Source: a virus
DNA length: 21,673 nucleotides
Direction: 5' to 3' (one strand)
IMG/VR virus record: IMGVR_UViG_3300029951_000120
Span: 1 to 21,673 of that record
Every line of letters begins with the position of its first letter. Within the stretch, counting starts at the first letter, position 1. This document shows positions 1 to 17,273 of the stretch, piece after piece. The translations under genes and the position numbers were made by a program. The notes under the pieces were generated by a model. That model worked only from the letters and a program-made list of their open reading frames with translations, searched no databases and had not been told where the DNA came from.

Positions 1-1683
1 ATCGAAATTATCCCACACCCAAGATCCCACACCAATCCATTCATTTTCTTTTACATTCACCGTTATACTGGGTTTATGTTCACACCAATGTTCTTGGACA
101 TTACGCCAGATTTCAAGGTGCTCGATTGCAGTGATATCCGACCTGCACAAACTAGCATCTGGGCTTGCGATGGGGAAAGAGAAGACAGCCGTATGGTCTG
201 GGTTTGTGACATCTGGTTCAAAGGGTACACCTTGGTCAATTAGGAATGTGGTTAGCGGATCTTTTACATCTCCTCGTACCGTCCTAATATAAAAAGGACT
301 ATGCCGAGGGTGAATGCCAGAACTACTGTCCACCAACTGGGAGACGGTACCTGAAGGCTTAACACAAGTAATAGCCACAGACTGCTGAATACCAAGAGTA
401 GTAGCCAGATTCTTATTTGTTGCAACTGCTATCTCCCGAAGGCGTTGGAGCCACAGACAACCTTCACCAGTTCGTCCGAGGATTGGGTGGTCGAGGATTC
501 CGGTAAGGCTAACGCCAAGTAGACGTTCTTCTTCTGTATTTTTCCGCCAGCAACGTCTGAGATACGCAAACTGAGTAAGAGTGGACTGAAAGGTCCCAAG
601 AATGGTGGCCAGTCGCACTTTTCGTTCCAGGTCTGACAAGTTATCTCCAGATCGTACAACGACTTCAGTGAGGTTACAGAACTGATTAGGTCGAAGAATG
701 ATCTCGCTGCAAGGATTAGTCCCGTACTCGAAAGAGACATCTCGTCTGGCATTTCGACTAGCTTGTCGCACGCTTGCCTTACGGTTGAATATCCCTCGCT
801 CCCCACTTTTACTGTCGTATAGAGATTGCCACTCTCGTAGGAATTCTCCGACGGATGGTTTTCCCAAGTACACCGCGCTGTTATTAGATAGACCTCGTTG
901 TCCATTCTGCTCCCACCAAGCTCCGTGCTTTGCCTGCCTTGCTCCTTCATCACTTAGATCGCTTAGACTGATCATGGCTGACCGTCTTACACCACCGACA
1001 ACAACAACCTCTGCAATCTTACACAAAAGATCGTGGCACTCTAGCGACGATAGTTGCCTTCCTCGGGCTCGATTACAAACTTCTGTAGCATAAGTAAATA
1101 ACTCGACAAGCGGCTCAGGTCCGCTAGCACGACCCCCAAAAGTCTTGAGTCGAGCGCCTGCAGGCCGTACTCGCGAAACGTCCCATCCAGGTGTGTAACC
1201 CTCAAAGAGGTAACTGAGGAGGGTTCTAAGGGCTGATGCCCACCCTTCCTTACTGTCTGGTACTGTGACAATTGGTTGATCTTGTCCACCAATAGTTTCT
1301 CCGATGGTTGGAAGTTGATCCACATATTTCTTTTCCACGCTGAAACCAACACCAGTCCCACAAAGTAGGATGTACATGGCCTCATCGAAGGCGCGTAGGT
1401 TGTCAACTACAAGATAAGCACAATTATAACCAGCTACGTGAGTCCTGTCAAGAGCTGGACCAGCAGTCATAAGACATCTCATTGATGGCATGACTTCTAG
1501 ATTAATTATCGCATCTTCAATTTCAAGCCATTCTTTTGAACCTAGAGAACCACCTTTGGTGTAAAGCATCATCCAATCAATATAGCGTCGGACAGTTTCT
1601 TCCCAGGTTTCTCGTCGGTTCTCATCAGGTATCCACCTAGCGTAGCGACTTGTGTGTATAAATCTTTGATAATCAGTTAGAAT
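1..1683 (-). CDS. nrdJ: Adenosylcobalamin-dependent (class II) ribonucleotide reductase, C-terminus cut by window edge
   Basis: Reduces ribonucleotides to deoxyribonucleotides for phage DNA synthesis, using a cobalamin-generated thiyl radical. The minus-strand frame is open for 561 codons with no stop and runs off the left edge. Family landmarks appear in order: an N-terminal SRYARW segment, PSMRCLMTAG, the first active-site cysteine in YNCAY, GTGVGFSVE, GGRASGPEPL, VGGVRRSAM, SNNSAV, the loop NPCSEI with its radical cysteine, then QFCNLTEV with the second redox cysteine, and KPSGTVSQL. These match monomeric RTPR-type enzymes; the C-terminal cysteine pair lies outside the window. No ATG, GTG or TTG occurs between the in-frame stop at 1704-1702 and the conserved N-terminus. 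The best start is ATT at 1683-1681, seven bases after an AGGAG, giving (M)LTDYQRFIH. It overlaps the end of the preceding gene by 7 nt. Function is near certain; the start codon is inferred. Confidence 0.95.
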   Translation of the reverse strand, partial: MLTDYQRFIHTSRYARWIPDENRRETWEETVRRYIDWMMLYTKGGSLGSKEWLEIEDAIINLEVMPSMRCLMTAGPALDRTHVAGYNCAYLVVDNLRAFDEAMYILLCGTGVGFSVEKKYVDQLPTIGETIGGQDQPIVTVPDSKEGWASALRTLLSYLFEGYTPGWDVSRVRPAGARLKTFGGRASGPEPLVELFTYATEVCNRARGRQLSSLECHDLLCKIAEVVVVGGVRRSAMISLSDLSDEGARQAKHGAWWEQNGQRGLSNNSAVYLGKPSVGEFLREWQSLYDSKSGERGIFNRKASVRQASRNARRDVSFEYGTNPCSEIILRPNQFCNLTEVVVRSGDNLSDLERKVRLATILGTFQSTLTQFAYLRRCWRKNTEEERLLGVSLTGILDHPILGRTGEGCLWLQRLREIAVATNKNLATTLGIQQSVAITCVKPSGTVSQLVDSSSGIHPRHSPFYIRTVRGDVKDPLTTFLIDQGVPFEPDVTNPDHTAVFSFPIASPDASLCRSDITAIEHLEIWRNVQEHWCEHKPSITVNVKENEWIGVGSWVWDNFD

Positions 1684-2237
1684 AGGTTTTCTCCTGCTGG
1701 TTCAATATTAAAAGCTAGATCGAACCCTTTAAATTGTGGGTTAAGCCAGCCGTACTTATCTGCTTTCTTTTGTGCCCGTGCCAAGGACTTAGCAACTGCT
1801 TTAGGTTCTTTATTCTTGCTAATGTACTCAATAGTTTCATTCTGTACGGATTCAAAAGCCTTACGATGAATGAACATACCTTTATTGCTGAACACACCAA
1901 GAGTTAGACTATGATCAAAGGATTTGAAATGCTGCTTTGGGTCAATAAAGTGCACACCTATTAGTTGTATCCTATACACCCCATCAACTAGATAATCATA
2001 GACAGATCCGATGTGATTACCATTACCTTGTTCATACTCATTCTGATTATCCTGATCAAGTTTTACCCAATTAGGTGGTAGAACTGGTAGACCAACCTGA
2101 TATGTATAAAAGATATCGTAGTCTTTCGGTTGAAGATGTACACTATATGCGTAGTCAACAACTGCTCCACCCATCAGAACAGAGTTCTTTGGGGCCTCAG
2201 AGATCAATTTCATCCAGAGTTTCGGACCGTTCGCCAT
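1677..2237 (-). CDS. Putative nucleotidyltransferase-fold protein
   Basis: A 186-residue protein whose N-terminus carries a GGAVVDYA turn followed about 15 residues later by KDYDIF. This is the pattern of nucleotidyltransferase-fold enzymes (GG, then D-x-D or a related acidic pair), as in the polymerase-beta / CCA-adding / MNT superfamily. The substrate cannot be told from sequence. The C-terminal half has a Lys/Ala-rich helix (KAVAKSLARAQKKADKYG). The ATG start has AGGA six bases upstream, inside the small overlapping gene before it. The 3' end overlaps nrdJ by 7 nt, so the two are probably translationally coupled. The second acidic residue of the canonical motif is not plain (DYD rather than DxD), so catalysis is uncertain. 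Confidence 0.65.
   Translation of the reverse strand: MANGPKLWMKLISEAPKNSVLMGGAVVDYAYSVHLQPKDYDIFYTYQVGLPVLPPNWVKLDQDNQNEYEQGNGNHIGSVYDYLVDGVYRIQLIGVHFIDPKQHFKSFDHSLTLGVFSNKGMFIHRKAFESVQNETIEYISKNKEPKAVAKSLARAQKKADKYGWLNPQFKGFDLAFNIEPAGENLF
1691..1695 (-). promoter_or_regulatory. Shine-Dalgarno AGGAG for the ATT start of nrdJ
   Basis: AGGAG lies seven bases upstream of the ATT at 1683-1681, inside the last codons of the preceding gene. It is the evidence that fixes an ATT start for nrdJ. The nearest in-frame ATG (1572-1570) would remove the conserved N-terminal segment. Confidence 0.6.
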
Positions 2238-2346
2238 CCCAGTTCCTTTTGGGTTTCTGTCGTTGTTGTTTAGGTAGTTTCAGATCCTTATCAAAGTGAT
2301 TCTGCCTACGCTGTCTTCTACGATCCTTAAGATCGAACTTGTTCAT
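2197..2346 (-). CDS. Small basic protein, overlapping both neighbours
   Basis: An ATG-initiated frame of 49 codons, MNKFDLKDRRRQRRQNHF at its start, strongly basic in the first two thirds (runs of Arg, Lys and Gln) and acidic at the end (LDEIDL). It begins inside the last codons of the DUF4406 gene (20 nt overlap) and ends 41 nt into the nucleotidyltransferase-like gene, so it fills the only gap between them. An AAGG sits just before the ATG, closer than ideal. The composition suggests nucleic-acid binding, but no family is recognised. Support is its position, since gaps are otherwise absent here, and the uninterrupted frame; it could be fortuitous. Confidence 0.45.
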   Translation of the reverse strand: MNKFDLKDRRRQRRQNHFDKDLKLPKQQRQKPKRNWDGERSETLDEIDL

Positions 2347-2680
2347 ACCCTTGCTCAACGTCGTACTCCGATAGTTCCCAAATCTTGAGGCTAAGGAATT
2401 TAGCTAGTGCCACTTCTGCCGCAACCCCTTTTGACTTCTGCCACCCAGGAAGAAGAGCAATTGCGTCCGCTTCATTTGCAATATAATTGAGATCATCCAT
2501 AATCATACAACGCATAACCTTACCATCAAGTTCTAGTTTATCATAACCTTTTTGGCGATCATTATCCGCTGGACTAAAAACTTCATGTCCATGTTTTCTT
2601 AGTGTCAGGGCAGCCATATCAAAGGCTGGAAAGTTAAACTCTGGAATGCCTCTCATAGGGCCAGCTAGGTAGACGTTCAT
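2327..2680 (-). CDS. DUF4406 protein, nucleoside 2-deoxyribosyltransferase-like
   Basis: A 117-residue protein starting MNVYLAGPMRGIPEFNFPAF, the hallmark N-terminus of DUF4406, a Rossmann-like family related to nucleoside 2-deoxyribosyltransferases and common in phages. Further family features are the NDRQKGYDKLELDG stretch and DAIALLPGWQKSKGVAAEVALA, where the latter matches the strand-turn-helix of the fold with a conserved Glu. It may act in nucleotide salvage or hydrolysis during infection, but no activity is established for the family. The start was placed at ATG 2680 rather than upstream because GGAG lies five bases before it and the conserved fold begins there. Confidence 0.8.
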   Translation of the reverse strand: MNVYLAGPMRGIPEFNFPAFDMAALTLRKHGHEVFSPADNDRQKGYDKLELDGKVMRCMIMDDLNYIANEADAIALLPGWQKSKGVAAEVALAKFLSLKIWELSEYDVEQGYEQVRS

Positions 2681-2773
2681 TGGTTCTCCAATATTTCGAA
2701 TAACCAATACCACAATATTTGGTTTGGTTCTATATTTTTATGCCGGAAATAAGCATAACTACTCGTCCAATAA

Positions 2774-3097
2774 TCAAGATTTTTGTTCAAGAATTAGTTC
2801 CAAACGAGCTAGACTATTCCAGGCAACGTGGGCAGCATGTAGAAGTTCACTATCAGCATCACAAACCTCTCCAGATGCTTCCTTGAGCAGGTGTCGAGCC
2901 AGTGCGTCAGTGTAACGATTAAGTCCGTCTGGGACATGTCTCCAACCAGCCCAGGCATATTTTCTGGCACCAAATTCACTGACACGAGATAGTTCTTCAA
3001 TTGCTCGCGGAAAGTATCCGATTGCTCCACGATAGACTGGAGCCTTTCCTTGGTCATACTTAACTGCGCCAGGTATTGACCCCTCGGCATCAGACAT
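2774..3097 (-). CDS. DUF5664 family protein (dATP/dGTP diphosphohydrolase N-terminal-like)
   Basis: A 107-residue protein with the typical order of this phage family: KYDQGKAPVYRG, then GYFPRAIEELSRVSEFGARKYAWAGW, then RYTDALARHLL and an acidic DADSELLHAAHVAWNSLARLEL segment. The family is MazG-like and named for a (d)NTP diphosphohydrolase N-terminal region. The likely role is conversion of particular dNTPs to monophosphates to adjust the pool during replication, which fits its neighbours nrdJ and the DUF4406 gene. It overlaps the end of the preceding small gene by 8 nt. The start was chosen from the ATG just after GGAAG. The family call is good; the substrate is not known. Confidence 0.8.
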   Translation of the reverse strand: MSDAEGSIPGAVKYDQGKAPVYRGAIGYFPRAIEELSRVSEFGARKYAWAGWRHVPDGLNRYTDALARHLLKEASGEVCDADSELLHAAHVAWNSLARLELILEQKS

Positions 3098-3245
3098 TAT
3101 CTTCCATCACACCAAATAGATTGGTTGGGTCTTCAATCGGTACGATCATAAAACCCCATTCAGCAAGTTCTCGTTCGAGAGTCTTAGCATCAAAGGGTTC
3201 GCCTTCGTAGATACGATCAATGATGTCATTCAGCATATCATCCAT
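3090..3245 (-). CDS. Small acidic protein, 51 residues
   Basis: Starts MDDMLNDIIDRIYEGEP and is rich in Asp and Glu. It begins one base after the stop of the DEDD exonuclease gene, with AAGG six bases before the ATG, and overlaps the DUF5664 gene by 8 nt. The frame is open further upstream, but that extension lies antiparallel-free inside the exonuclease coding frame and would duplicate coding of conserved sequence, so the short form is preferred. No family recognised. Its position and ribosome binding site make translation likely. Confidence 0.65.
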   Translation of the reverse strand: MDDMLNDIIDRIYEGEPFDAKTLERELAEWGFMIVPIEDPTNLFGVMEDNV

Positions 3246-3246
3246 C

Positions 3247-5412: not shown

Positions 5413-5427
5413 ATTTGCTTCCTTGCT

Positions 5428-6264
5428 CTAGAAGTTCACTTTTTCGAATACCTTCGGTTCTCTTTTTACTGTCGTGAAAAACTTAGGGCCATTAGAATAA
5501 AGAAAGGTCCGAAGACCCAAACCACCATTGCTATCAGCCCAACAACGCCTCTTATGATCACAGTAGGAGCAATTTGTTCCAAGAACTCGGTTACCACTTG
5601 CTCCATCTTCTTCATCGGGGTAGCACCTTTCAGGTTCGACATCTGACTCAACAGCAGACTTTAAATAGTCAATACGTTCTTCAACATTAACTGTGGCAGC
5701 AAGTTCGTCCTTAGTGAATGGAAGATAAGCTAGGTGTCCGCTGACTTTGTCCATTGCAAGAAATGCACCGTCTGTGTTTCTTGCTTTACTATAACCGGCG
5801 ATCTGTTCAATATAACCGAAGGCGTCGTCTTCAGCCAAAGATCCATTAGCGAACTTCTTAAACGAATAGGGGCTAGCACTCTTGACATCAACAGTTACTC
5901 CGTCGATGTCGGCGTCGATATGTCCTTTAATTCCTTGGATAGCCACTTCATCTTGGCGAGCCGTAACATTGTGGCCCGACACGCTGGCGAGGAATAGTAG
6001 GACAGACTCTGTAATGTGGCCAACGAGGAACTTGAGGAGAGTGTGGCCTTTGAGTGGTTCTTCTGGTTCATATCTCTTTTGGTACCAAAGTTGACGTGCG
6101 CCTTTTCCGAGGTTGGACATACGAAGGGTGAATGGTCGTTTACCTTCTTCTAGACTGTCCCGGATAATGGTAGCAAGTTCAGACCCAAATTCAGTTGCTT
6201 CGGCGTCGGTAACTTGCTTACCATTTTCCAGGACAGAATAGATGTCATCTACTAAAGTTGAGAT
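5428..6264 (-). CDS. PD-(D/E)XK exonuclease, Cas4/RecB-like with probable Fe-S cysteines
   Basis: A 278-residue nuclease placed where T7-like phages keep their DNA-degrading exonuclease. The active site reads GHIDAD (Asp117), then VTVDVKSAS (Asp126, Lys128) and a downstream EQIAGY motif with Gln154, the RecB/Cas4 arrangement. Four cysteines (214, 232, 235, 241; C-x17-C-x2-C-x5-C) match the cluster-binding pattern of Cas4 and AddB. The conserved N-terminus (STLVDDIYSVLENG) continues 48 codons above the first ATG (6120), which has no ribosome binding site. No ATG, GTG or TTG occurs in those codons. The start is therefore taken as ATC at 6264-6262, sharing a base with the SSB stop (TAATC), with GGAAG seven bases upstream. 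Confidence 0.88.
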   Translation of the reverse strand: MSTLVDDIYSVLENGKQVTDAEATEFGSELATIIRDSLEEGKRPFTLRMSNLGKGARQLWYQKRYEPEEPLKGHTLLKFLVGHITESVLLFLASVSGHNVTARQDEVAIQGIKGHIDADIDGVTVDVKSASPYSFKKFANGSLAEDDAFGYIEQIAGYSKARNTDGAFLAMDKVSGHLAYLPFTKDELAATVNVEERIDYLKSAVESDVEPERCYPDEEDGASGNRVLGTNCSYCDHKRRCWADSNGGLGLRTFLYSNGPKFFTTVKREPKVFEKVNF

Positions 6265-6704
6265 TAAGCGACTTCCTCGGCCCAGGGCTTGTCATCTTCT
6301 CTAGTTGGGAATTCACCGCCTTCAAATGCTACCAAGTCCCAGACCTGAAGCGATAGAATATTAGCCGACTTCTGATTCTTACCATACTCGTTAATAGCAA
6401 AGTTGACATTGACCGTAGAACTATTACCGATCTTGGTCTTCGGATTCCACGCTTCACCATGATGGTCAACCACACGAATGGGTTGGTTCGGACTGCCGTC
6501 TTGCTTCAGTTCACGACGCTTGAAGGTCATATAAGGACCATTACCCTTGTCCTTGATCTTCTCTTTCAGACCTTCAACTTCCAGCCGATGAACAGTTTCC
6601 TCGTCGAGATACACATCAATGCTCCACTCCTTGTGAGCATTTTGATAACCCCAACCAGGTTCACCGGTAATCTTGGCCCACTTGGCCTTTCCACGAATGA
6701 GCAA
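6264..6704 (-). CDS. Single-stranded DNA-binding protein, T7 gp2.5-like
   Basis: A 146-residue protein with an OB-fold-like pattern of strands: LIRGKAKWAKI, EWSIDVYL, PYMTFKRREL, then GNSSTVNVNFAINEYG and SLQVWDLVAF. It ends in an acidic tail (TREDDKPWAEEVA), the feature by which such proteins contact polymerase and helicase. The family coats single-stranded DNA in replication and recombination, and the location next to the exonuclease and polymerase agrees. The start is TTG at 6704, with AAAGGAG six bases upstream, a strong site. A sigma70-type promoter lies about 90 bases upstream. Confidence 0.85.
   Translation of the reverse strand: MLIRGKAKWAKITGEPGWGYQNAHKEWSIDVYLDEETVHRLEVEGLKEKIKDKGNGPYMTFKRRELKQDGSPNQPIRVVDHHGEAWNPKTKIGNSSTVNVNFAINEYGKNQKSANILSLQVWDLVAFEGGEFPTREDDKPWAEEVA
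6272..6278 (-). promoter_or_regulatory. Shine-Dalgarno GAGGAAG for the ATC start of the exonuclease
   Basis: GAGGAAG ends seven bases before the ATC at 6264-6262, inside the last SSB codons. It supports an ATC start coupled to SSB termination through the TAATC overlap. Confidence 0.5.
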
Positions 6705-6790
6705 TAGATGCTCCTTTCTTTCTTGTTATTTTCTTATTGTTTTATTGTCTTCGACATTAAAGTAGATGATCTCTCATCACCATATTCAAT

Positions 6791-6819
6791 ATTGTACCTT
6801 ATGATACTTTACTTGTCAA
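6791..6819 (-). promoter_or_regulatory. Sigma70-type promoter before SSB
   Basis: TTGACA at 6819-6814, a 17-base spacer and TACAAT at 6796-6791 give a near-consensus bacterial promoter on the coding strand. The -35 box overlaps the last codons (V D K) of the small gene upstream. Transcription would start near 6784 and feed SSB, exonuclease and the genes beyond, presumably by host RNA polymerase. Confidence 0.75.
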
Positions 6820-7030: not shown

Positions 7031-8860
7031 TCAATGGCACTCTGCCCAGTTGAGTCCAACTTTGTAGTTACCCGTGAGCGGGACTTTAAATCCAATAGCA
7101 AGCCCTGCACTTGTGATTGCGTCAACACAGGTCTTTCCAACTTCCTCAGAATCCTCGGTCTTTGCATCAAGTTGTCCTTCATCATGAATGTTACCCACAT
7201 AGAAGCCATCAAGCCCGCGCCGTTTAATCTCATTACGGGCTATGATAGCCGCCTTCTTCATAACTATTGCCCCCGCACTTTGGAGCTTATAATTAAGGCT
7301 AGCGCTTTTGGAGTGGCACCTGACGAATCCCCCATCAATAGTTCGGAGAAGTCCGCCAGTTCCTCGAAACTCATCTTGGATATCTGCGACCAATCTGGCC
7401 AGTCCGGGCGTACCTTTTTCAAGGACTCCACGAGCCCATTTACCGTATGGTCCAGCTTCACCTTTACGAAGTTCAGGTTTAAGCGTGACTCCGAGTTTAC
7501 CATCTCCAGCTCCATAGAGATAAGCGTAGAATCCATTCTTGACCGTGAGATCACGCATTTCATCTGGGAGTTCGAGGTTTCTAGTGTTAAGGAGGTGGGG
7601 GTCTCCTGTAGTGAAGAGAAGGGTGGCCTCAGCATTGTTAAGATACTCAGCAAACATACGCATTTCAAGGCCGCTGGCATCATAGCCAACTTCTCGTCGG
7701 TTGGGTCTAGCTTGCCAGAGCCTTCGACATTCAATTCCATACTTTACCTTCTGCTTTGCCTTAGGGATATTGGCTGTGTTTGGACCAAAATGTGTCATCC
7801 GACGGGTTGTTGCACCACAAGTCAGAACACTACCGTGCATACAACTGTCTTCATAGTTAACATTATTCAACCAAGTGTCAATCATAGATGACCGACCCTG
7901 AAGTACAAGCCATTCAGCAATAGCAGTTGCTTCAGGTCTTCTCGAACTCTCAGCGAACGCTAGAAGGCTTTCTTCGTCAACCTTGGGGAAACCCTTCTCA
8001 GTGAAATCTTGGGGTTCCCAACCTAGTCCAAGTAGGCGTTCTACTCTCTGCTTAGGCGATCCAATATTGAAGGCTTGCCAATCGAGAGTGCTGTAGGTTC
8101 CGTCTCCGTTTTCACGGAGTTCAGGATATGTTGCAAGGTGCCTGAGGCGGCTCGCATATTCTCCTCCGTCCGCTTTAACTCTTCGATTGTATGTTCCGAC
8201 AACTTCAAGCTTGGGTGGGAATAGCTCCAGTATTGGACCTTCCAGAGCTGCTTGCTCAGCTCGGAGTTGACCGACAAGAGATTGTGCACCTGGGATGTCA
8301 AATGCCCAACCAGCTCGCTTTTGCTCATCTACTACCTCTCTGATTTCATGTTCAATTTCACAAGACAGCTCACTAAAACCAAGCCGCAACATACGCTGCC
8401 ACAGAGCACGAGCCACTTTCTTTCCGAGCCGAACGTCTTGTTGGCAATACCTGTCCATTTCGGGGCTGTAGCCACTGAAGTCGTCGAACTGCCCTTTCGG
8501 GTCTCCAAGACGTTCGCCCCAAGCTTCCAGGCTGTGGCCGCCGCTGAGAGCAGGATCGTACAGGTATGAAAGAACAAGAGTGTCGACGATATTACCAGTG
8601 TGAATGGGAGCGCCAACCAATCTCGCCGTGTGAGGTCCGTCGTAACTGATCGCGTTATGACCGACAAAATATACCCCCTGTCCCCGTAGTTCATCGAAAA
8701 ATCTCCGTATCGCATCATGGCCAACGAAACTATGAACTTCATCAGAGTCCATTCGACTGGCACACATCATCCAAAGTTTAGATGGGTACAGGCTGTCTGC
8801 TTCGCAGTCTATGTACCAATATTTGTGATAGTCCTCAACGCGGGGAAGGTATTTTACCAT
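7031..8860 (-). CDS. Family A DNA polymerase with 3'-5' exonuclease, T7-like
   Basis: A 609-residue replicative polymerase. The N-terminal exonuclease domain has YIDCEAD (Asp18, Glu20), VGHNAISYDG (Asp74) and RYCQQDV (Asp142). The polymerase domain has motif A GYDASGLEMRMFAEYLN (Asp394), motif B with Arg436, Lys441 and Tyr445 in front of YLYGAGD, and motif C NIHDEGQ (His559, Asp560, Glu561). The O-helix position corresponding to T7 Tyr526 is also tyrosine. The spacing between the motif B Arg and Lys is one residue longer than in T7. No 5'-nuclease domain is present. The ATG lies inside the last codons of the primase-helicase gene (7-nt overlap), so the two are coupled. Confidence 0.97.
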   Translation of the reverse strand: MVKYLPRVEDYHKYWYIDCEADSLYPSKLWMMCASRMDSDEVHSFVGHDAIRRFFDELRGQGVYFVGHNAISYDGPHTARLVGAPIHTGNIVDTLVLSYLYDPALSGGHSLEAWGERLGDPKGQFDDFSGYSPEMDRYCQQDVRLGKKVARALWQRMLRLGFSELSCEIEHEIREVVDEQKRAGWAFDIPGAQSLVGQLRAEQAALEGPILELFPPKLEVVGTYNRRVKADGGEYASRLRHLATYPELRENGDGTYSTLDWQAFNIGSPKQRVERLLGLGWEPQDFTEKGFPKVDEESLLAFAESSRRPEATAIAEWLVLQGRSSMIDTWLNNVNYEDSCMHGSVLTCGATTRRMTHFGPNTANIPKAKQKVKYGIECRRLWQARPNRREVGYDASGLEMRMFAEYLNNAEATLLFTTGDPHLLNTRNLELPDEMRDLTVKNGFYAYLYGAGDGKLGVTLKPELRKGEAGPYGKWARGVLEKGTPGLARLVADIQDEFRGTGGLLRTIDGGFVRCHSKSASLNYKLQSAGAIVMKKAAIIARNEIKRRGLDGFYVGNIHDEGQLDAKTEDSEEVGKTCVDAITSAGLAIGFKVPLTGNYKVGLNWAECH

Positions 8861-10461
8861 GAATGCTCAACTATTGTAGTTCCTCCGTTGTTGTACTGTA
8901 TAATCTGTTCTTTGTCTAGTTCTGTGAGTCGCCCGGTGAATTCGTTATAATGAAGGTAAGCGCCAGGACCAGTCCTGCCACAAAACCTGTTCTTTTCTAC
9001 AATAAGTTTCACCACATTACGCCTCCACGGGTCTTCGGAGAGACGTTCTCTATGAAGTTTGATTACAATATTGGCCAGTTGTTCCACACCAGCAGTGCCC
9101 CTAATTTGACCCTGCCTATTCTGGTGTATTACAGCAAGTACCGCGATATTTAATTCCATTGTCAAAGTTTTGAGCTTAGTGCTAATCTCATCTAGTTGCT
9201 TACGCTCATCCCCTGATTGATCAGACACGACAATACTAAGATGGTCCAAGATAATATACTTGCAACCAAGATTGTGCATATGGCGGACTTTATTGAGTAT
9301 CTCCTGAATGGAGTTACTCCCGAAATGATCATAAATAACCAGCTTGTCAGTATTAACACTCCGATCAAAATACTCACGCATCTCCTCCTGTTTAATTGTG
9401 TCCCTTACATCTGGAAGATGGAGAGGTAGATTAGCCTCAAGTGACATCAAACCTAGTGCTGTGTCGCCGTTAGTCTCTTCCAGGTGAAGGAGTCCGATAC
9501 CCGCATCGGGGCTAACCTTACGGATATTGAACTCTATTTCCTTGAGTACTGATGTCTTTCCAACACCTGTTTCCGCAGTGAAGACCACGAACTCCGAAAG
9601 CCTAATGCCGTATGTCTGAGTATTAAGCAAGTCCCAGGGATACGGTACTGTCTCATACGCCTTCCGTTCGCTGATCTCACCCCACATGTCGCGGCCAAGT
9701 TTGAGGCCGCTTGGAGTAAACGTCGGGCTGGACCACCATTCACGGTTGAACTGCTCCCGCTTACCAGCTTTAAGATAGTCGTTCGGGTCTTTGCCGTCTG
9801 CAAGAGTAAGAATCTTAACCTTGCCGATGGGGAACATACCAGCCACAGCAAGAGCCGCCTCTTGGCCGGGGTAACGGATTTGTCCCGTTCTCTCATTTAC
9901 TTTCGGATCGTCCCTGTCGAAGCAGACAACGACGTTTGCAAAGCTGTTAAGGTATTCAAAGTTGTCTGCAACATCTCGACTAGCTCCGTCCGCTCCATAT
10001 CGAACAGACACGACCGGCCACCTGCTTCCCATGAGCTCAAATGCCGCGCAAGCGTCATATTCGCCTTCAACAATTGTAATGAACTTCGCACTACCTCCAG
10101 GAAAAAGCTGGCTTCCGAAGAGTCCGGAGTGTTTGATGTCACCTTCAACATTAAATTCTTTATCAGGGTGTCTGACCTTGTTTGCAAGGTGTTTTCCATC
10201 ATTGAAATATGGGAAGTATGTCGTGTCACCATTACGCCAAATGCCATACTTCTCAGCACTGGCGCGGGATATCTTTCGATCAGTTAAATCTTTGTAGTCT
10301 TTACCGAGTTCTGTGAGGATATTACTGTCCTCCTTCTTATTGTTATTCGGAAATGTCGTGTTACCGCAACTGAAGCAATGAGTGTGTCCATCATCATACA
10401 AAGAATTGGCATCACTACTATCACATTCGTTACAGGCAATGTGCCTTAGAAACTGACTTAT
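8854..10461 (-). CDS. Bifunctional primase-helicase, T7 gp4-like, with ATA start
   Basis: A 535-residue protein that primes and unwinds DNA at the fork. The zinc-binding domain has two pairs, HIACNEC (Cys10, Cys13) and HCFSC (Cys29, Cys32), close to T7 gp4. The TOPRIM primase domain shows IVEGEYD (about 131-137) and VVCFDRDDP (about 179-187). The RecA-like helicase has Walker A ETGVGKTS (about 297-304), Walker B IILDHLSIVVS, a HQNRQGQIRGTAGVEQL arginine-finger region and LIVEKNRFCGRTG. The first TTG (10401) would discard half the zinc site. Upstream the frame stays open with conserved sequence but has no standard start. ATA at 10461-10459 gives (M)SQFLRHIACNEC, overlaps the upstream stop as ATAA and has GAGG ten bases before it. 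Confidence 0.95.
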   Translation of the reverse strand: MSQFLRHIACNECDSSDANSLYDDGHTHCFSCGNTTFPNNNKKEDSNILTELGKDYKDLTDRKISRASAEKYGIWRNGDTTYFPYFNDGKHLANKVRHPDKEFNVEGDIKHSGLFGSQLFPGGSAKFITIVEGEYDACAAFELMGSRWPVVSVRYGADGASRDVADNFEYLNSFANVVVCFDRDDPKVNERTGQIRYPGQEAALAVAGMFPIGKVKILTLADGKDPNDYLKAGKREQFNREWWSSPTFTPSGLKLGRDMWGEISERKAYETVPYPWDLLNTQTYGIRLSEFVVFTAETGVGKTSVLKEIEFNIRKVSPDAGIGLLHLEETNGDTALGLMSLEANLPLHLPDVRDTIKQEEMREYFDRSVNTDKLVIYDHFGSNSIQEILNKVRHMHNLGCKYIILDHLSIVVSDQSGDERKQLDEISTKLKTLTMELNIAVLAVIHQNRQGQIRGTAGVEQLANIVIKLHRERLSEDPWRRNVVKLIVEKNRFCGRTGPGAYLHYNEFTGRLTELDKEQIIQYNNGGTTIVEHSW

Positions 10462-10679
10462 TTTATAATGGCCTCATAGTAAACATAAAAAAGACCGTGC
10501 CAATATGCTCTGAGATTTTTGTTAGGATAAGCTACTCTAAGAGCTTTGTTCATTTCGGAACAGCGTTCATTATTTGTTAATCCAGACGGGACGTTGATAA
10601 TTCTAATCTGACTACCTGGTAAAAGGTTACCTGCCTCAATAAGCCAATGACTCCAATCAGTTTTTACGGTAATTGTCAT
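10458..10679 (-). CDS. Hypothetical protein, 73 residues
   Basis: Begins MTITVKTDWSHWLIEAGNLL and ends AYWHGLFYVYYEAIIK. AAGGAAAG lies just ahead of the ATG. The gene overlaps the metallophosphoesterase upstream by 23 nt and its TAA overlaps the ATA start of the primase-helicase. The pattern of short amphipathic segments rich in Trp and Tyr suggests a compact fold, but no family is recognised. Because its termination may drive primase-helicase initiation, its translation could set the helicase level. Confidence 0.75.
   Translation of the reverse strand: MTITVKTDWSHWLIEAGNLLPGSQIRIINVPSGLTNNERCSEMNKALRVAYPNKNLRAYWHGLFYVYYEAIIK
10472..10475 (-). promoter_or_regulatory. Weak Shine-Dalgarno GAGG for the ATA start of primase-helicase
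   Basis: GAGG lies ten bases before ATA 10461 in the closing codons of the 73-residue gene. Spacing is long and the match short, so coupling through the ATAA stop/start overlap may matter more. Confidence 0.35.
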
Positions 10680-11193
10680 GCACTTTCCTTTTTAACGCTT
10701 CATGAATTTGAATTGGCGAGTAGTCTGTATGTTCAAGACTGACACACACATACCTTGGATCATCTATTTTCTGGTAGTGAAGGTGACCATGGATGTTGGT
10801 TCCGAACCTTCCCACACTATCAGGATGTATAGGTATGTGGGAAAGAATGACCTTATTACCTTCGCCGTCCTTTTGAACCACATACGAACGAATGTCATCA
10901 AAGAACGGAAGATAGTCTGGCAACTTGAAAATATCATGATTGCCTTTGACTAGAACAAGGCGACCAACAAAGCGAGATAGCAAATGCCTGCTATGCCGAT
11001 TGATACACACGTCTCCAAGCATGTAGACCCGATCTTCGGGCTTGATAACTGCATTGTGACGTTGGATGATTGTTTCATCATGTTCCTCTATAGTTTTGAA
11101 AGGCCGAAGTGGCGTTCCGTCTTCTCGTTTGAAATTGAGAATATTAGCATGGCCAAGGTGATGGTCAGCAGCCACCCACGTCCTGCCGCTCAT
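10657..11193 (-). CDS. Calcineurin-like metallophosphoesterase
   Basis: A 178-residue protein with all blocks of the family in order: ADHHLGH (Asp10, His12), MLGDVCIN, VKGNHDIF, ILSHIPIHP and NIHGHLHY. These ligands bind a two-metal centre that hydrolyses phosphomonoesters or diesters. It is short, like the phage and bacterial YfcE/MJ0936-type enzymes. The GTPLRPF and HDETIIQRHN segments are typical of a subfamily common in phages with unknown substrate. The ATG forms a TAATG overlap with the stop of the preceding gene. An AGGAG lies 13 bases before it, too far to be the only signal, so coupling is likely. Confidence 0.9.
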   Translation of the reverse strand: MSGRTWVAADHHLGHANILNFKREDGTPLRPFKTIEEHDETIIQRHNAVIKPEDRVYMLGDVCINRHSRHLLSRFVGRLVLVKGNHDIFKLPDYLPFFDDIRSYVVQKDGEGNKVILSHIPIHPDSVGRFGTNIHGHLHYQKIDDPRYVCVSLEHTDYSPIQIHEALKRKVHDNYRKN

Positions 11194-11797: not shown

Positions 11798-11931
11798 CCC
11801 CAACCATCTTCAATAAGATCTTCATCTTGCTCTTCTTCATTAAAATATTCAACAGTTTCCTGTATAATCTCACTACAAGAAAGACAGTCCCAAAAACTAT
11901 TAGTATCACGATCACAAATCGGGCAGCGCAT
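11794..11931 (-). CDS. Small zinc-ribbon protein, 45 residues
   Basis: The protein begins MRCPICDRDTNSFWDCLSC, two CxxC pairs ten residues apart that would bind one zinc ion, followed by an acidic tail (EYFNEEEQDEDLIEDGWG). GGAG lies five bases before the ATG. The ATG overlaps the preceding stop (TAATG) and its own TGA overlaps the next ATG (ATGA), so it sits exactly in register between two genes. Small zinc-ribbon proteins of this kind are frequent in phages; its partner is unknown. Confidence 0.8.
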   Translation of the reverse strand: MRCPICDRDTNSFWDCLSCSEIIQETVEYFNEEEQDEDLIEDGWG

Positions 11932-12305: not shown

Positions 12306-12312
12306 TGGTCCA

Positions 12313-13194
12313 CTACCAACCGAGATTGAGGTTGCGGATACCACTTCCAATTCCGGCCACGGAAGCAGGGGCGGCAACCCACAATCCAGGTCCAGCTTGT
12401 TGTTCTGCGGGCTTATGATCATAGGCAATTGCCTTCGGTTTAATACCGGTTCGTAAACTTTCTGCAAGACCTCTGAGGGCGACGCCGTACTGCTGAACAG
12501 TTGTCCCTTCGATGCCCGGTGCAGTATTAGCTTCCAGGACATAAAAATCTCCCTTTTTGTCCTCGATGATATCCAGACCACCAAAATCCAAGCCCAGCGC
12601 CTTGATGGTCTGTATTGCCAAGGCGTCGCGTTTAGCACTAGGAATTATGTTCTTGCGCTGAAAGATAAAACCATTTTGCCAGGAACGAACTTTCCAGCTA
12701 ACAACTTCACGCTTAGGGTCACGGACCTTTTGTTGGGTGTCAATAATATCATATGGCGTTGCATGAACGCGAAATTCCTTTTCCTTGAAAATGTATTGGG
12801 TGTAGAGGGGAGCTTCTATGAGCTCATTACCTGGCTCTACTATTACAATACCATCGCCTTCATGGCCTGTCAAGGTCTTCCGGGCCACAACCGTCTTGCC
12901 AGAAGCCAGCCACTCCTTGGCCACAGCCTTATTAGCTGTCCAAGGAACTGTGGGTATATTCTTTCCCGCCAGCATCTGAAATGTCATTAGCTTATTAACA
13001 GCCTTAGCAACCGCACCCGGTTGATTTAGTGGCCGAAATTTAGTAACTGCAATAGCAGCGCGACATTTACCCCAGTTAACAATCACATCGTCCGGCTTAA
13101 CAACCTTATTAAGATGAAGACGACGAAAACCCTCCTCTTTAGCGAGCAAGGCGGCTCCGTCGGACGGTCGGCCACTGTAAATCCAAATGGTCAT
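12313..13194 (-). CDS. ATP-grasp ligase of the phage amidoligase cassette
   Basis: A 293-residue protein of the ATP-grasp superfamily, which forms amide bonds through an acyl-phosphate. Family features: VVARKTLTGHEGDGIVIVEP (the ATP-binding loop with a catalytic Lys), EFRVHATPYDIIDTQQKVR, FGGLDIIEDKKGDFYVLEAN with the metal-binding Glu and Asn, and TAPGIEGTTVQQY. It resembles RimK / D-Ala-D-Ala ligase-like enzymes found in phages. The C-terminal 50 residues are Gly/Ala/Pro-rich. The ATG overlaps the amidoligase stop (ATGA). Its position after two COOH-NH2 ligases and two amidotransferases suggests one peptide or amide modification pathway, whose target is unknown. Confidence 0.9.
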   Translation of the reverse strand: MTIWIYSGRPSDGAALLAKEEGFRRLHLNKVVKPDDVIVNWGKCRAAIAVTKFRPLNQPGAVAKAVNKLMTFQMLAGKNIPTVPWTANKAVAKEWLASGKTVVARKTLTGHEGDGIVIVEPGNELIEAPLYTQYIFKEKEFRVHATPYDIIDTQQKVRDPKREVVSWKVRSWQNGFIFQRKNIIPSAKRDALAIQTIKALGLDFGGLDIIEDKKGDFYVLEANTAPGIEGTTVQQYGVALRGLAESLRTGIKPKAIAYDHKPAEQQAGPGLWVAAPASVAGIGSGIRNLNLGW

Positions 13195-14060
13195 TCGGTC
13201 AAAGCCCCTTCATTCCACGCAGAACAGAACGCCAAATCTTGAGCGATCCTCATGCCGTCTCGCAACATCTCTTCAAATCCAGCAACCTTAAGATACTTGA
13301 TAGCATATGGCCCAAGAGAATTCTTCAGGAATTCAGTCGAGTCCATCATGCTGAATTGCTGGATGATTGCAGTAGGATTTTGAAATGTCCTAGCCCTTTC
13401 CTTGATCTGCTGGAGGGTACCAATCCAATGCATAAGACGACCCTCATGCAATGTGCATTCCAAGGACCGATACTCAATACTGCCAAACTTCAACAGACTG
13501 GCGAAATTAATTGAACTATAGCGATTATTCTGTTGAATACCGAAGAAGTCTGAACCCTGGGAAATGGAGTTTACAAGTTCAACAATTTGTCCCATCGCAT
13601 CCTTGGCGCGGAAACAGAAATTATTACCAACTCTGTGTTCTCCGTTCTGAGACACTAGAAGTTCGTCAAGTATCACAGACAACACCATCGAATTGTAGAT
13701 GGTTCTGAATGATTCTTGAGAATAATTAACGTGAACATGGATTGAAGTCCGGTACGAGTCGAACACCTCAACCCCTGGACCGGTAAGGTAACCAAACAGA
13801 AGTTGGATAGCTTTCTCAGTATTTTTCAAATTATATGGTGAACGACTGACGTACTCAACAGCCTGAGATCCTGGTACGATTTTCCGAAGACTGCCATCAT
13901 TATGTTGAGCCCACAAAATCTTAACCCGCTCTTCAGGGCTCATAATATTCTTGCCTTCGAGCTCAACTTCAATACCGAAAACGTCTGTCACACTAGCCGC
14001 ATTCGCAATAGGAATATGACGAGTTAAGGTGTCGTCCAGTTTCATTCTCTTTGTAAGCAT
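13191..14060 (-). CDS. Amidoligase (COOH-NH2 ligase, glutamine synthetase-like fold)
   Basis: A 289-residue enzyme of the putative amidoligase family. Visible landmarks: FGIEVELEG (metal- and ATP-binding Glu pair), AQHNDGSLR, AVEYVSRSPYN, SIHVHVNYS and INFASLLKFGSIEYRSLECT. These match the glutamine synthetase / gamma-glutamylcysteine synthetase-like fold, which joins a carboxylate to an amine using ATP. It starts at ATG overlapping the previous stop (TAATG), with GGAGG ten bases upstream. Iyer, Aravind and colleagues described such enzymes in phiEco32-like phages as parts of predicted cell-wall or protein modification systems; the real substrate is unknown. Confidence 0.85.
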   Translation of the reverse strand: MLTKRMKLDDTLTRHIPIANAASVTDVFGIEVELEGKNIMSPEERVKILWAQHNDGSLRKIVPGSQAVEYVSRSPYNLKNTEKAIQLLFGYLTGPGVEVFDSYRTSIHVHVNYSQESFRTIYNSMVLSVILDELLVSQNGEHRVGNNFCFRAKDAMGQIVELVNSISQGSDFFGIQQNNRYSSINFASLLKFGSIEYRSLECTLHEGRLMHWIGTLQQIKERARTFQNPTAIIQQFSMMDSTEFLKNSLGPYAIKYLKVAGFEEMLRDGMRIAQDLAFCSAWNEGALTE

Positions 14061-14689
14061 TATGCGAGAGCCTCCTGCAATGCTTCATTGAGGTGTTTGT
14101 ACTCATTCAAAATCTTGTACTCACCAAGATTACCATTAAGACTTACGCCAACCTTGGTACCACGATATTCAAGAATAAAATCCTGGTGGATGTAATCATA
14201 CGACAATGCGAAATCCTTATGAAAAGCAATAGTCTTAGCTTCTTTGTCTTTCAAGACCTTTTCGACAACAGGAATTTCAGGATAAACATTCTCTAGCATA
14301 TTTACATACGGACGTGAAAAATTGAAATTCTCTTCTGGCATCATAACATTTTCTGAAGATGAAAAGCCGAGTTGGGAACGAATCAAACCCTGCCGATATT
14401 GCTTGATTGGTTTTCTATACCACCAAAGACAGTGATTATTAGTATTGGCATAACCAATATTGTACTTCTTATATGTGAACGCTTTGTCTTCGAGATTTAT
14501 ATTTTTATTGCGCATATTGAAAGCACAGACGACTAGACGAAACTTATCTGGAATCTGTTCACTGTTATTAGGATCTATCTGATGACTAACTTGCTTGACG
14601 AAAACAGCTTTATTCTCATAATAACAGATAGTTTGACTGAACTTGGAACTAACGTCTTCTAGGTTGTCGAACTGTATTTCCTTAGGCAT
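14060..14689 (-). CDS. Unknown 209-residue protein inside the amidoligase cassette
   Basis: I do not recognise this family. The protein has a central aromatic and basic block, GYANTNNHCLWWYRKPIKQY followed by RQGLIRSQLGFSS, and alternating hydrophobic strands toward the C-terminus (FILEYRGTKVGVSLNG). It is rich in Asn, Lys and Tyr. Its start (TAATG) and stop (TAATG) overlap the genes on either side, so it is firmly embedded between two ligase genes. It could be a substrate-binding accessory, a scaffold or the substrate itself; the sequence does not decide. Confidence 0.85.
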   Translation of the reverse strand: MPKEIQFDNLEDVSSKFSQTICYYENKAVFVKQVSHQIDPNNSEQIPDKFRLVVCAFNMRNKNINLEDKAFTYKKYNIGYANTNNHCLWWYRKPIKQYRQGLIRSQLGFSSSENVMMPEENFNFSRPYVNMLENVYPEIPVVEKVLKDKEAKTIAFHKDFALSYDYIHQDFILEYRGTKVGVSLNGNLGEYKILNEYKHLNEALQEALA

Positions 14690-15531
14690 TAAGCCGCCTT
14701 AAGTAGTGTTAGTGGATCCAAGTGCAAGTCACACTCGGGATAGTGTTCAGGCCAATCAACATCATTGGTGTTGATCACAGTCTGTGCGATGTCACCATAG
14801 TTGTCCTCGGCCCAGAGCCCGCTAAAGCCGTCGGCCATAGCGACCTGAGTAGTGTTATAGACCCAACGCATCAATGGGTCTGAATCCAACCATCTATTTG
14901 AGAGAACGCGATACTCCAACCCGTAGGATTTCGGACGAAACGCACCCGCTTTCCCGTATAGTGAACGACGAACCGGGTCTTTATCCCAAAAAAGTGAATA
15001 CATCCCAAGATAGTAGTCCAACTGACGTGCAAAACGACAACAAAGCATGAACCAATCTTTATCCTCAATGTCTTTGTCCTCTGTCCAACCAATGTGAATG
15101 TGCCCGCTAGCGGTCCTGAAAGGCTCCCCAGCGGGATCGGGGGCCGGATTGGTAGTCATGGTCCAGCCACTATAGTCAGGGTTACAGCCGAGCTCCTGGG
15201 CATGACTAGGGACTTGAAACTTGAAGTAGTCTGGCTCAAACCGAGCAACAGGTTCAGCCACAACATTATAGCCGGGGACCATATTGATCATGGTGTTCAT
15301 AACGGATTGAATATTGTGAACAAACTCATCACAGGTTTTAGCAGGATCAATGTTAAACTCAAGTGCGGTTCCGTCAATTTGGACCGCCCCAAATGGAACT
15401 TTGTGAGGTTCCCACTTAGTTCCGGGAATTCTTGGTCCATGTTCCAGGTCGTCAGCAGACACAAAAGCACCCGTATTAGGGTTACGCATAAAGAGTTCTG
15501 GGTCGCAACCGACCAATACTGTTGATTTCAA
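14689..15531 (-). CDS. phiEco32-like COOH-NH2 ligase, type 2 amidoligase
   Basis: A 280-residue enzyme with the features of the phage type 2 amidoligase family: VGCDPELFMRN at the N-terminus, KVPFGAVQIDGTALEFNIDP, then RTASGHIHIGW and the C-terminal KAGAFRPKSYGLEYRVLSNR. The Glu, His and Arg residues in these blocks correspond to the ATP/metal site of the glutamine synthetase-like fold. It would activate a carboxylate and couple it to an amine. The start is TTG with AGGA eight bases upstream. It follows the class II amidotransferase after 12 bases and overlaps the unknown gene by one base. Confidence 0.92.
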   Translation of the reverse strand: MKSTVLVGCDPELFMRNPNTGAFVSADDLEHGPRIPGTKWEPHKVPFGAVQIDGTALEFNIDPAKTCDEFVHNIQSVMNTMINMVPGYNVVAEPVARFEPDYFKFQVPSHAQELGCNPDYSGWTMTTNPAPDPAGEPFRTASGHIHIGWTEDKDIEDKDWFMLCCRFARQLDYYLGMYSLFWDKDPVRRSLYGKAGAFRPKSYGLEYRVLSNRWLDSDPLMRWVYNTTQVAMADGFSGLWAEDNYGDIAQTVINTNDVDWPEHYPECDLHLDPLTLLKAA

Positions 15532-15543
15532 CTCTTGTTTCCT

Positions 15544-16617
15544 TCACATCACATGTCGGAGGGTTTCATAGCAATCAACATCGCCATAACAAACTTCACA
15601 CATGAATGGAGTATTCTTGGCCCCATTCCAGTTACCCATTATCTGAATAAAGTCACCCCATTCTTGACTGTTGTCATTACAGAACGCACAGCCTTCGGCA
15701 ACCATGTGCTCAAACTGCTGCTTGTTGATGGTGTGGCCGTAGATGTCTTTGTATGGGGGGCGAAATCGCTTGGTATCGAATTTTTGATTAAACGATAGAA
15801 CATTGCTATCACTCTTCTTATAACCAGCAAACGTCTTCACCGTCGTCGTAGTTGTAGCCCCACCTGTAAAAGGGACTGTGGCATAAACACATGACTTCCC
15901 TTCAACTTTAGACTGCTCGGGACTGTCAAATTTCTTGGTAACAACCGTGGGGACTTTCCACTTATAATGGGTGTCCTTGGTTATCGTGAAGAACTCGTCG
16001 CCTTCCGTTTTCTTGCGACGACGACCTAGAACGTACTTAAGCATCTCAGGTTCAGACGCCCAAATAAGCGTGCAACGATCTGCAGAATAGCAATAGTGAA
16101 GTGGTCGCTTGTCATTACGCAGGAAGTTTAGGGTTCCGTCTCGCTTGTCAAACCACGTAAGAGCCCAAGCGCCAGTCACACGCTTCATGGTTTCAACAAC
16201 ACCAACTTCATTTATTGTCGAAAAAATGGCCTGACTGTCTGTGTCATAGAGATTCGCATCATGAAGATTTTTAATAGTAAATTTGTCAAGCGTACCATTA
16301 TGAGCACCCATAACATGTTCAAAAGCGAATGGATGAGCATTCTCTTCAGTGTGAGCCCCAAGAGTGGCATATCTGTTATGCCCTATGAGAACTTTAACAG
16401 GATTATTGATGTCCATAGCGTCTTCGAACGCCTTGGAGTGAAACAAGTTGAAAGGGTGTCCGGGCGCTCTTGCTAGAGTGAACTCGTTCGTGGCTCTGTG
16501 AACAAATCCAGCACCAGTTGAGTGTGCACCTCTAACACTGTCAACTAGTAGTAGTTCATTAAAAACGTCTTTCCAACTTCCATAAATGTCTCCCGCGACT
16601 CCGACTAGCCCGCAAAT
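15544..16617 (-). CDS. Class II (Ntn) glutamine amidotransferase with zinc-ribbon tail, ATT start
   Basis: A 357-residue protein. The N-terminal domain is an Ntn-type glutaminase: catalytic Cys directly after the initiator in (M)CGLVGVAGDI, GHNRYAT (79-85, substrate Arg), HNGTL (106-110, oxyanion Asn-Gly) and DTDSQ (125-129). It releases ammonia from glutamine. The C-terminus adds two cysteine pairs, CAFC (310-313) and CEVC (340-343), likely binding zinc. The catalytic Cys must be residue 1 after Met removal, and the codon before it is ATT (16617-16615), with AGGAG eight bases upstream. The first TTG (16446) would delete the nucleophile. It overlaps the end of the class I amidotransferase gene by 13 nt. 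Confidence 0.93.
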   Translation of the reverse strand: MCGLVGVAGDIYGSWKDVFNELLLVDSVRGAHSTGAGFVHRATNEFTLARAPGHPFNLFHSKAFEDAMDINNPVKVLIGHNRYATLGAHTEENAHPFAFEHVMGAHNGTLDKFTIKNLHDANLYDTDSQAIFSTINEVGVVETMKRVTGAWALTWFDKRDGTLNFLRNDKRPLHYCYSADRCTLIWASEPEMLKYVLGRRRKKTEGDEFFTITKDTHYKWKVPTVVTKKFDSPEQSKVEGKSCVYATVPFTGGATTTTTVKTFAGYKKSDSNVLSFNQKFDTKRFRPPYKDIYGHTINKQQFEHMVAEGCAFCNDNSQEWGDFIQIMGNWNGAKNTPFMCEVCYGDVDCYETLRHVM

Positions 16618-17273
16618 TGCAAACTCTCCTGCATGAATTCTGACATTAGTTCAAAACAATAATCAGCAAAACGAGAACCGGGAACATATTCTGGATGACC
16701 CTGAATGCAGAGGGTCCGGGTTTGCGGATACCAAACGATCTCAGTGTCCTTGTGGTCGTCTGGGTAGAAAAGACTATGCCCAGCTTCCCAATGATCAGGA
16801 TTCGCAAGCTTTCTGGTTGATTCGTCAGCCGTTGCAATGACAACACCAGTCTTGTAATTGGGTCGCATCATCTGGTGGTGTGTGCTGGTGGCTCTGATCT
16901 TTTCACCAGTTCGGGTGTCAACGATCATATGGTCGCGAGTGTGACGATCAACATCTTGCCAGAGGGTGCCACCATTAAGGCAATTGAGAAGTTGAGCTCC
17001 ACGACAGATACCAAGTTTGAAAGTATTCGGAAAACGATTAAAGATGGCAATCTCTTCTTCATCACGACGAGACGGTTCGAACGGAACACCACGATAAGCC
17101 GGTCGTTCGTGGTAGATTTTGGTACCAATATCGGCACCGCCGTTAAAGACAATCAAAGTAGCAGACTCGGGATCTTTGATAGGACGCATACCAATTCCAC
17201 GGAAAAGATGGCTGGAACTGTCCAAACCACCATATTCGTTAAGGCTAGTAAACGGCATGTCTTTAAAGTTCAT
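16605..17273 (-). CDS. Class I glutamine amidotransferase / gamma-glutamyl hydrolase-like (C26)
   Basis: A 222-residue protein resembling PuuD-type gamma-glutamyl-GABA hydrolases. It shows FNGGADIG, LGICRGAQLLNCLNGG with nucleophile Cys90, TSTHHQM and IQGHPEYV with His193 and Glu195, the full class I triad. It could cleave gamma-glutamyl amides or supply ammonia, and so reverse or feed the ligases encoded downstream. The start is uncertain: ATG 17273 overlaps the end of the Pro-Gln protein gene, and ATG 17258 comes just after it; neither has a clear ribosome binding site. The frame further upstream falls in the acidic tail codons and is not real. Confidence 0.88.
   Translation of the reverse strand: MNFKDMPFTSLNEYGGLDSSSHLFRGIGMRPIKDPESATLIVFNGGADIGTKIYHERPAYRGVPFEPSRRDEEEIAIFNRFPNTFKLGICRGAQLLNCLNGGTLWQDVDRHTRDHMIVDTRTGEKIRATSTHHQMMRPNYKTGVVIATADESTRKLANPDHWEAGHSLFYPDDHKDTEIVWYPQTRTLCIQGHPEYVPGSRFADYCFELMSEFMQESLQFAG
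16626..16630 (-). promoter_or_regulatory. Shine-Dalgarno AGGAG for the ATT start of the class II amidotransferase
   Basis: AGGAG lies eight bases before ATT 16617-16615, in the final codons of the class I amidotransferase gene. Together with the catalytic cysteine codon that follows the ATT, it fixes the start. Confidence 0.75.

Follow-up and report, generated by a model that had tools for sequence, protein, structure and literature searches.

The window analysed here, the whole stretch of DNA, comprises the 21,673 bases of a phage record in IMG/VR (IMGVR_UViG_3300029951_000120). Four of its genes, all on the minus strand, encode a B12-dependent ribonucleotide reductase (nrdJ), a Cas4-like exonuclease, a T7-type primase-helicase and a class II glutamine amidotransferase, and very probably start at the isoleucine codons ATT, ATC, ATA and ATT (AUU, AUC or AUA in the message, collectively AUH). 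Their reading frames were taken from the sequence, and matches to PHROGs and Pfam identified the products. None of them has an ATG, GTG or TTG between the upstream in-frame stop and the conserved N-terminal sequence. The initial annotation of this DNA had made the same claim, and it is confirmed both by the sequence and by two to four contigs for each gene. The four genes, their start signals and the genes that precede them are as follows.

1–1683, minus strand: nrdJ, running off the window (PHROG 367, E = 5.5e-160; Pfam RNR_Alpha and RNR-II insertion domain)
1681–1683, minus strand: ATT start codon of nrdJ; no ATG, GTG or TTG from the in-frame stop to the conserved FIH.SRYA
1691–1695, minus strand: Shine-Dalgarno (SD) sequence AGGAG of nrdJ, 7 bases before the ATT; same sequence in contig G001
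1677–2237, minus strand: nucleotidyltransferase-like gene preceding nrdJ (PHROG 1614, E = 4.7e-07); stop TAA at 1679–1677
5428–6264, minus strand: Cas4-like exonuclease (PHROG 1990, E = 2.7e-36)
6262–6264, minus strand: ATC start codon of the exonuclease, overlapping the preceding gene's stop by 1 base as TAATC
6275–6278, minus strand: SD sequence GAGG of the exonuclease, 10 bases before the ATC
6264–6704, minus strand: gene preceding the exonuclease, with a weak match to a Gp2.5-like single-stranded DNA-binding protein (PHROG 112, E = 0.00019); stop TAA at 6266–6264
8854–10461, minus strand: T7-type primase-helicase (PHROG 239, E = 1.6e-142; Pfam DnaB_C)
10459–10461, minus strand: ATA start codon of the primase-helicase, overlapping the preceding gene's stop TAA by 4 bases as ATAA
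10472–10475, minus strand: SD sequence GAGG of the primase-helicase, 10 bases before the ATA
10458–10679, minus strand: small gene (73 amino acids) preceding the primase, between it and the phosphoesterase
10657–11193, minus strand: phosphoesterase (PHROG 547, E = 1.2e-46)
15544–16617, minus strand: class II glutamine amidotransferase (PHROG 4736, E = 9.8e-67; Pfam GATase_6)
16615–16617, minus strand: ATT start codon of the amidotransferase, directly before the catalytic Cys codon
16626–16630, minus strand: SD sequence AGGAG of the amidotransferase, 8 bases before the ATT
16605–17273, minus strand: class I amidotransferase (Peptidase C26) preceding the class II gene (PHROG 7218, PF07722); stop TAG at 16607–16605

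All four starts thus have an AGGAG or GAGG SD sequence, at distances that agree with the 7–10 bases given by the initial annotation. Their closeness to the preceding stop also stood up: nrdJ overlaps it by 7 bases (ATTCTAA), and the two amidotransferase genes overlap by 13 bases. The next in-frame canonical codons lie exactly where they had been placed, at ATG 1572 for nrdJ (37 codons on), ATG 6120 for the exonuclease (48 codons), TTG 10401 for the primase-helicase (20 codons) and TTG 16446 for the amidotransferase (57 codons). Identical start codons occur in separate contigs of the same phage (four for nrdJ, four for the exonuclease, three for the primase and two for the amidotransferase), which makes sequencing error a very unlikely source of the AUH codons. 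The ATT of nrdJ is also found in two relatives, L029 (80% identical) and L234 (62%). A Pfam scan returned no match for the exonuclease, and PHROG and Pfam scans returned none for the 73-residue gene upstream of the primase. In several relatives the phosphoesterase overlaps the primase directly.

The amidotransferase fixes the start most precisely. Class II (Ntn) amidotransferases have an N-terminal Cys that is exposed once the initiator is removed. With the catalytic Cys directly after the initiator and no propeptide, the codon before the Cys is therefore the start codon. This Cys is invariant across 21 aligned class II amidotransferase proteins and is predicted from sequence to be catalytic. 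Among 94 distinct phage sequences, the preceding codon was ATG in 58, TTG in 11, GTG in 4, ATT in 11 and ATC in 10, with no others, so that every sequence (94/94) has a start-type codon at this position, canonical in 73 and AUH in 21. An earlier set of 83 distinct sequences, before named phages were added, likewise had only these five codons. The 94 rows came from 148 matched loci: five were omitted with alignments that stopped short of residue 3 and one, with ATG before the Cys, at a contig end; none was left out for want of the Cys, and the remaining 142 were reduced by collapsing identical contexts. Since the sequences were drawn from the best 80 of 355 stretches, 21/94 is the share among the window's nearest relatives and not among all phages. 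A propeptide upstream of the Cys was considered and rejected, as in 19 of the 21 AUH genes no canonical start occurs from the in-frame stop to the Cys (L309 and L320 are the exceptions). A GGAG SD sequence precedes 20/21 AUH amidotransferases vs. 37/73 canonical ones (Fisher p = 1e-4), and its spacing is 8 in 19/21 of the AUH genes. The AUH state changes 18 times on the maximum-likelihood amidotransferase tree (17–18 in bootstrap trees), with at least 10 changes forced by well-supported branches. AUH labels were not more clustered on this tree than shuffled labels (130 of 500 shuffles were as low); the state turns over fast.

The same codons are found in phages of known bacteria. We read 17 named phages, from 313 records with an amidotransferase match. 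ATC precedes the Cys in Pseudomonas phages O4, K4, Ty and IME180 and Klebsiella phage Klyazma, and ATT in Pseudomonas phage FBPa8 and Klebsiella phages Asterion and VR7901. The others have TTG (TC6, PP21, HHBS10_2, DMTU_1 and CVT22), ATG (PPAT, an unverified record, GP100 and Pecta) or GTG (KZY1). The annotated amidotransferase of each of the eight AUH phages begins 14–37 codons late and has lost the Cys; in O4 the annotated ATG lies 37 codons on, and the predicted N-terminus from the ATC is CGLVGVAGAVTFNLEK. Since widely used gene finders recognise no starts other than ATG, GTG and TTG, phage enzymes are recorded without an active-site residue. HHBS10_2 and DMTU_1 (GenBank PQ287653 and PV659690) are annotated 37 codons late despite a TTG before the Cys. 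Over codons 2–37, O4 and PA11, which has TTG, differ by seven synonymous changes and one non-synonymous change, and this excess of synonymous differences points to selection on the unannotated N-terminus as protein. AUH amidotransferases are thus misannotated in phages whose hosts are known, where the starts can be tested directly.

Relatives of each of the four genes were collected by scans of a viral collection, with identical contexts collapsed, and each family (window included) was searched for any ATG, GTG or TTG that follows the upstream in-frame stop and precedes a conserved N-terminal anchor. Primases without a canonical start made up 8/16 at 70% identity or more, 3/28 at 50–70% and 0/51 below; for the exonuclease, in the same descending order, the counts were 3/4, 7/21 and 1/65, and for nrdJ 2/6 and 2/103, where the start in L060/L241 is uncertain. 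The anchor test gave 5/26 for the amidotransferase. Rows in which the anchor codon was itself ATG were judged false; these were six of the seven flagged endonuclease I genes and polymerases L212 and L135. The concentration of missing canonical starts among close relatives indicates a trait mainly of a phage lineage and not of a single contig. Relatives have ATG, GTG, TTG, ATT, ATC, ATA or CTG at this position or very near it, all but ATT being found for the exonuclease; an ACG start may be read from context in the primases of L015 and L227 and in ThyX of G005. The N-terminal stretch of nrdJ compared between the window and L029 has 18 identical, 12 synonymous and 6 non-synonymous codons; for the primase, the comparison with G010 was excluded as out of register.

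A census with one common script was made on four genome sets. In the window's clade (eight genomes, including G001, the same phage as the window), 27 of 366 conserved genes were flagged as lacking a canonical start and 19 were kept by hand as near-cognate starts: ATT 7, ATA 5, CTG 4, ATC 2 and ACG 1. The eight dropped were two split genes (G003 nrdJ and G004 polymerase), one unclear case (G005 at 20104) and five open reading frames (ORFs) that were weak or in the wrong frame. Four T7-like phages had 0/135 flagged genes (Fisher p = 0.003 against 19/366), a smaller set not matched in divergence; with hand curation and so small a control, 19 is an estimate. The window itself had 4 flagged among 32 conserved genes; taken with the census, this is more than chance would give. 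Five more distant phages had near-cognate starts in 2/76 genes (G013 primase, CTG; G015 exonuclease, ATC). Four named Zobellviridae had 44/192 flagged genes, among which the O4 and VR7901 amidotransferases were accepted, the only two with more than one partner genome agreeing; the remaining flags rest on one partner genome each, nearly all of them the near-identical pair O4/PA11. The repeated AUH use that the initial annotation had seen in one window is therefore wider than claimed, recurring through the clade and in named Zobellviridae.

We think it very probable that the four genes begin at AUU, AUC or AUA, read as N-formylmethionine with SD assistance by the ordinary initiator tRNA of the host, in a lineage where the start codon is loosely constrained. 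These codons match AUG at two of three bases, and the host's initiator tRNA is most likely their reader. A GGAG- or GAGG-type SD sequence 7–10 bases upstream would compensate for the weak codon, and ribosomes finishing the overlapping upstream gene would perhaps do so as well. ATG, GTG, TTG, ATT, ATC, ATA, CTG and ACG would then interchange at nearly fixed positions. What the sequences show directly is where these genes start, that no canonical codon could serve, that the pattern recurs and that an SD sequence is present; initiation with N-formylmethionine, help from coupling and lowered dosage are proposed. These enzymes, required only in small amounts, would likely be made at moderate to low levels: in the passages available from PMC13009471, AUU and AUA starts with a strong SD sequence gave ~10–30% of AUG in Staphylococcus aureus reporters, from which we infer reduced output here. 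Recoding of initiation by the phage itself was considered and set aside: ARAGORN found no initiator tRNA in 14 records or in the window, and no IF3_C domain of initiation factor 3 (IF3) was found in 10 phage records. As phages of Pseudomonas aeruginosa and Klebsiella pneumoniae share the feature, neither phage recoding nor an odd host is needed.

Several observations weigh against this reading or parts of it. The 19 clade genes were hand-picked from the 27 flagged, and the exact first codon of nrdJ, the exonuclease and the primase is taken from context, unlike that of the amidotransferase. SD length in the clade shows no difference between near-cognate and canonical starts (p = 0.16); the G008 and G009 exonucleases have no SD match and the G003 polymerase has a very weak one. 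The reading as a whole is drawn from sequence. Overlap with the upstream gene is only mildly commoner for near-cognate starts (12/16 vs. 99/216, p = 0.036), and starts at short reinitiation distances, from ~8 bases of overlap to a 6-base gap relative to the upstream stop, are not enriched (5/16 vs. 89/216). The last two counts bear on the suggestion in the initial annotation that termination-reinitiation rescues these starts, which is weakly supported. Single overlaps fit it, namely ATAA at the window primase, TAATC at the window exonuclease and ATTAG at a dATP/dGTP diphosphohydrolase-like gene in G009, and three of the four window starts fall within the reinitiation distances (overlaps 7, 1 and 4; the amidotransferase, at 13, is outside). 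Excess IF3 lowers reinitiation in E. coli, as described in part of PMC2268962, so reinitiation would be no obvious escape from IF3. The account of reinitiation at non-canonical starts in PMC4648390 concerns eukaryotic cells and was set aside.

Could the proteins instead start downstream, at the first ATG, GTG or TTG, with the conserved N-terminal stretch untranslated or unneeded? The annotations of all eight named AUH phages assume so, but such starts would cost the amidotransferase its catalytic Cys and the window primase its first Cys pair (CNEC), the stretch evolves as coding sequence in both the nrdJ and the O4/PA11 comparisons, and many relatives have an ATG start at the same place. We regard this explanation as scarcely credible. 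Also very improbable is ribosomal frameshifting or readthrough out of the upstream gene, which would yield fusion proteins and make a start codon unnecessary. In six relatives (L005, L013, G004, G005, G006 and G010) the primase start region is indeed embedded 50–68 bases deep in the phosphoesterase frame upstream and lacks a canonical start; the window primase, however, has a different upstream gene from those six. Upstream genes differ generally, SD sites precede most near-cognate codons, and a stop codon lies in the amidotransferase frame 11 codons (window) or 4 codons (L288) before the ATT; a fusion would also bury the N-terminal Cys of this enzyme.

A host with relaxed start-codon selection, through altered IF3 or initiator tRNA, would explain why several genes of one clade are affected and why TTG and GTG are also common (49/314 and 45/314 clade starts by our start calls). 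The AUH starts in phages whose recorded hosts are P. aeruginosa and K. pneumoniae make this unlikely. The host of the window was sought in one genome-contig scan, which gave a single distant partial match (28%) in a Castellaniella metagenome-assembled genome. There is more to be said for regulation of the infC/pcnB type, in which IF3-sensitive AUH starts set enzyme dosage or timing during infection. AUH amidotransferases retain a strong SD sequence at the tight spacing of 8; IF3 represses non-canonical starts in E. coli and Streptomyces (in the sections of PMC5472188 available), and the AUA start of S. aureus ccpN is medium-dependent (likewise PMC13009471). The initial annotation had proposed to look for conservation of the AUH codons in related phages, but these codons are not conserved: they are exchanged with ATG, GTG, TTG, CTG and ACG at the same site, and close relatives use different codons (ATG in PPAT, from an unverified record, and ATT in FBPa8; TTG in PA11 and ATC in O4). 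This argues against a fixed or conserved regulatory role. IF3 sensitivity of AUH starts is possible, and the regulatory explanation as a whole a tentative one that we do not favour over loosely constrained initiation.

Many AUH amidotransferase leaders have a hairpin of 5–6 base pairs directly before the SD sequence, with unrelated stems (L362, L371, L376, L315, L333, L346 and L356). Stems of at least 5 pairs occur in 12/21 AUH genes vs. 4/73 canonical ones, and hairpin energies of −4 or lower in 10/21 vs. 2/73, compared with 17/420 shuffles. Over supported phylogenetic pairs the link gave a median p of 0.125, with too few pairs, and the hairpin is absent from the window's own amidotransferase; for these two reasons it is kept out of the main claim. 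The gene preceding the AUH amidotransferase matched Pfam HNH_3 in L315, L333, L346 and L355 (four of six upstream proteins scanned, one from an ATG row), and in Klyazma (L377) an annotated HNH endonuclease lies just before it. In GP100 (L381:10625) a similar hairpin arrangement separates an HNH gene from the following gene, whose start is ATG. The HNH genes just before AUH amidotransferases suggest that insertion of a mobile gene replaced the start region. Taken further, a cassette of hairpin, GGAGGAUA and AUU or AUC, sometimes behind an HNH homing endonuclease gene, might replace the normal start of a neighbouring gene as a movable translational setting and keep that gene expressed in an IF3-sensitive way in infection, which we consider rather doubtful. 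If it were true, near-cognate starts would belong to ordinary phage gene structure and be masked by gene finders that allow only ATG, GTG and TTG.

We then asked how these starts compare with those already described. Single non-canonical starts are known in bacteria: AUU in E. coli infC and pcnB, ATC in Streptomyces infC, AUA in S. aureus infC and ccpN, AUU in S. aureus cvfC1 and GTC in sigR (all from portions of PMC13009471 and PMC5472188). As in infC, an isoleucine codon one mismatch from AUG initiates here. The S. aureus AUH starts, in the same portion of PMC13009471, stand behind strong SD sequences, as in the window, and yield less product than AUG. In contrast to these single bacterial genes, several unrelated genes of one phage clade are involved, and the codon switches freely, unlike that of ccpN or cvfC1, whose AUH codon is kept among relatives. 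Codons at orthologous positions likewise replace one another in prokaryotes, where an analysis of 36 groups, in the part of PMC5622118 available, found that, of 61,358 ancestral AUG starts, 1 had been replaced by AUU and 2 by CUG; the phage amidotransferases, at 21/94 AUU or AUC and at least 10 changes, come from a data set built differently and are not strictly comparable. The overlaps resemble termination-reinitiation pairs described in sections of PMC10666635, with ATAA for ATGA and TAATC for TAATG, plus ATTAG, a −5 overlap that ATT can form and canonical starts cannot; unlike in those pairs, the start is AUH and coupling is only surmised. What appears new is the recurrent, quickly exchanged use of AUH starts across one phage lineage. 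No title or abstract on recurrent AUH or near-cognate starts in a phage lineage was found among the matches listed from the open-licence literature, where Zobellviridae amidotransferases were also covered, subscription papers and preprints being outside the search. Should AUH starts prove as frequent in further phage groups, many records would be wrong about N-termini, gene boundaries and overlaps, and phages would be good natural material for studying the evolution of initiation fidelity.

Among named Zobellviridae, Paundecimvirus O4 and PA11 and Citrovirus VR7901 resemble the window in having class I amidotransferase, COOH-NH2 ligase, amidoligase and ATP-grasp neighbours, and O4 and VR7901 also in the AUH start of the amidotransferase. 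They differ from it in the small hairpin before the SD sequence of the AUH leader, and only the amidotransferase was found affected there. This comparison rests on protein best hits and gene content. In the window, genes for a RimK-like ATP-grasp protein, an amidoligase, a COOH-NH2 ligase and the class I and class II amidotransferases are clustered at 12313–17273, and O4 and VR7901 have like-named genes.

Some other features of the window and its relatives were noted. nrdJ is split into two frames inside conserved sequence in G002 and G003 (minus-strand ORF at 24991 in G003), as is the DNA polymerase of G004 (plus-strand ORF at 11821); introns, inserted genes or frameshifts may be responsible. 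Two inverted repeat pairs (30 bases, 87%; 23 bases, 91%) and three 21-base direct copies at 21115–21504 of the window are perhaps promoters or an origin. Within the open frame 19733–20329, imperfect 21-base tandem repeats at 19777–20017 give rise to an Ala/Ser-rich protein repeat. At 17327–17422 a hexamer (TGTGGT on the plus strand) is repeated perfectly 16 times and encodes a (Pro-Gln)n tract in the gene at 17263–18252.

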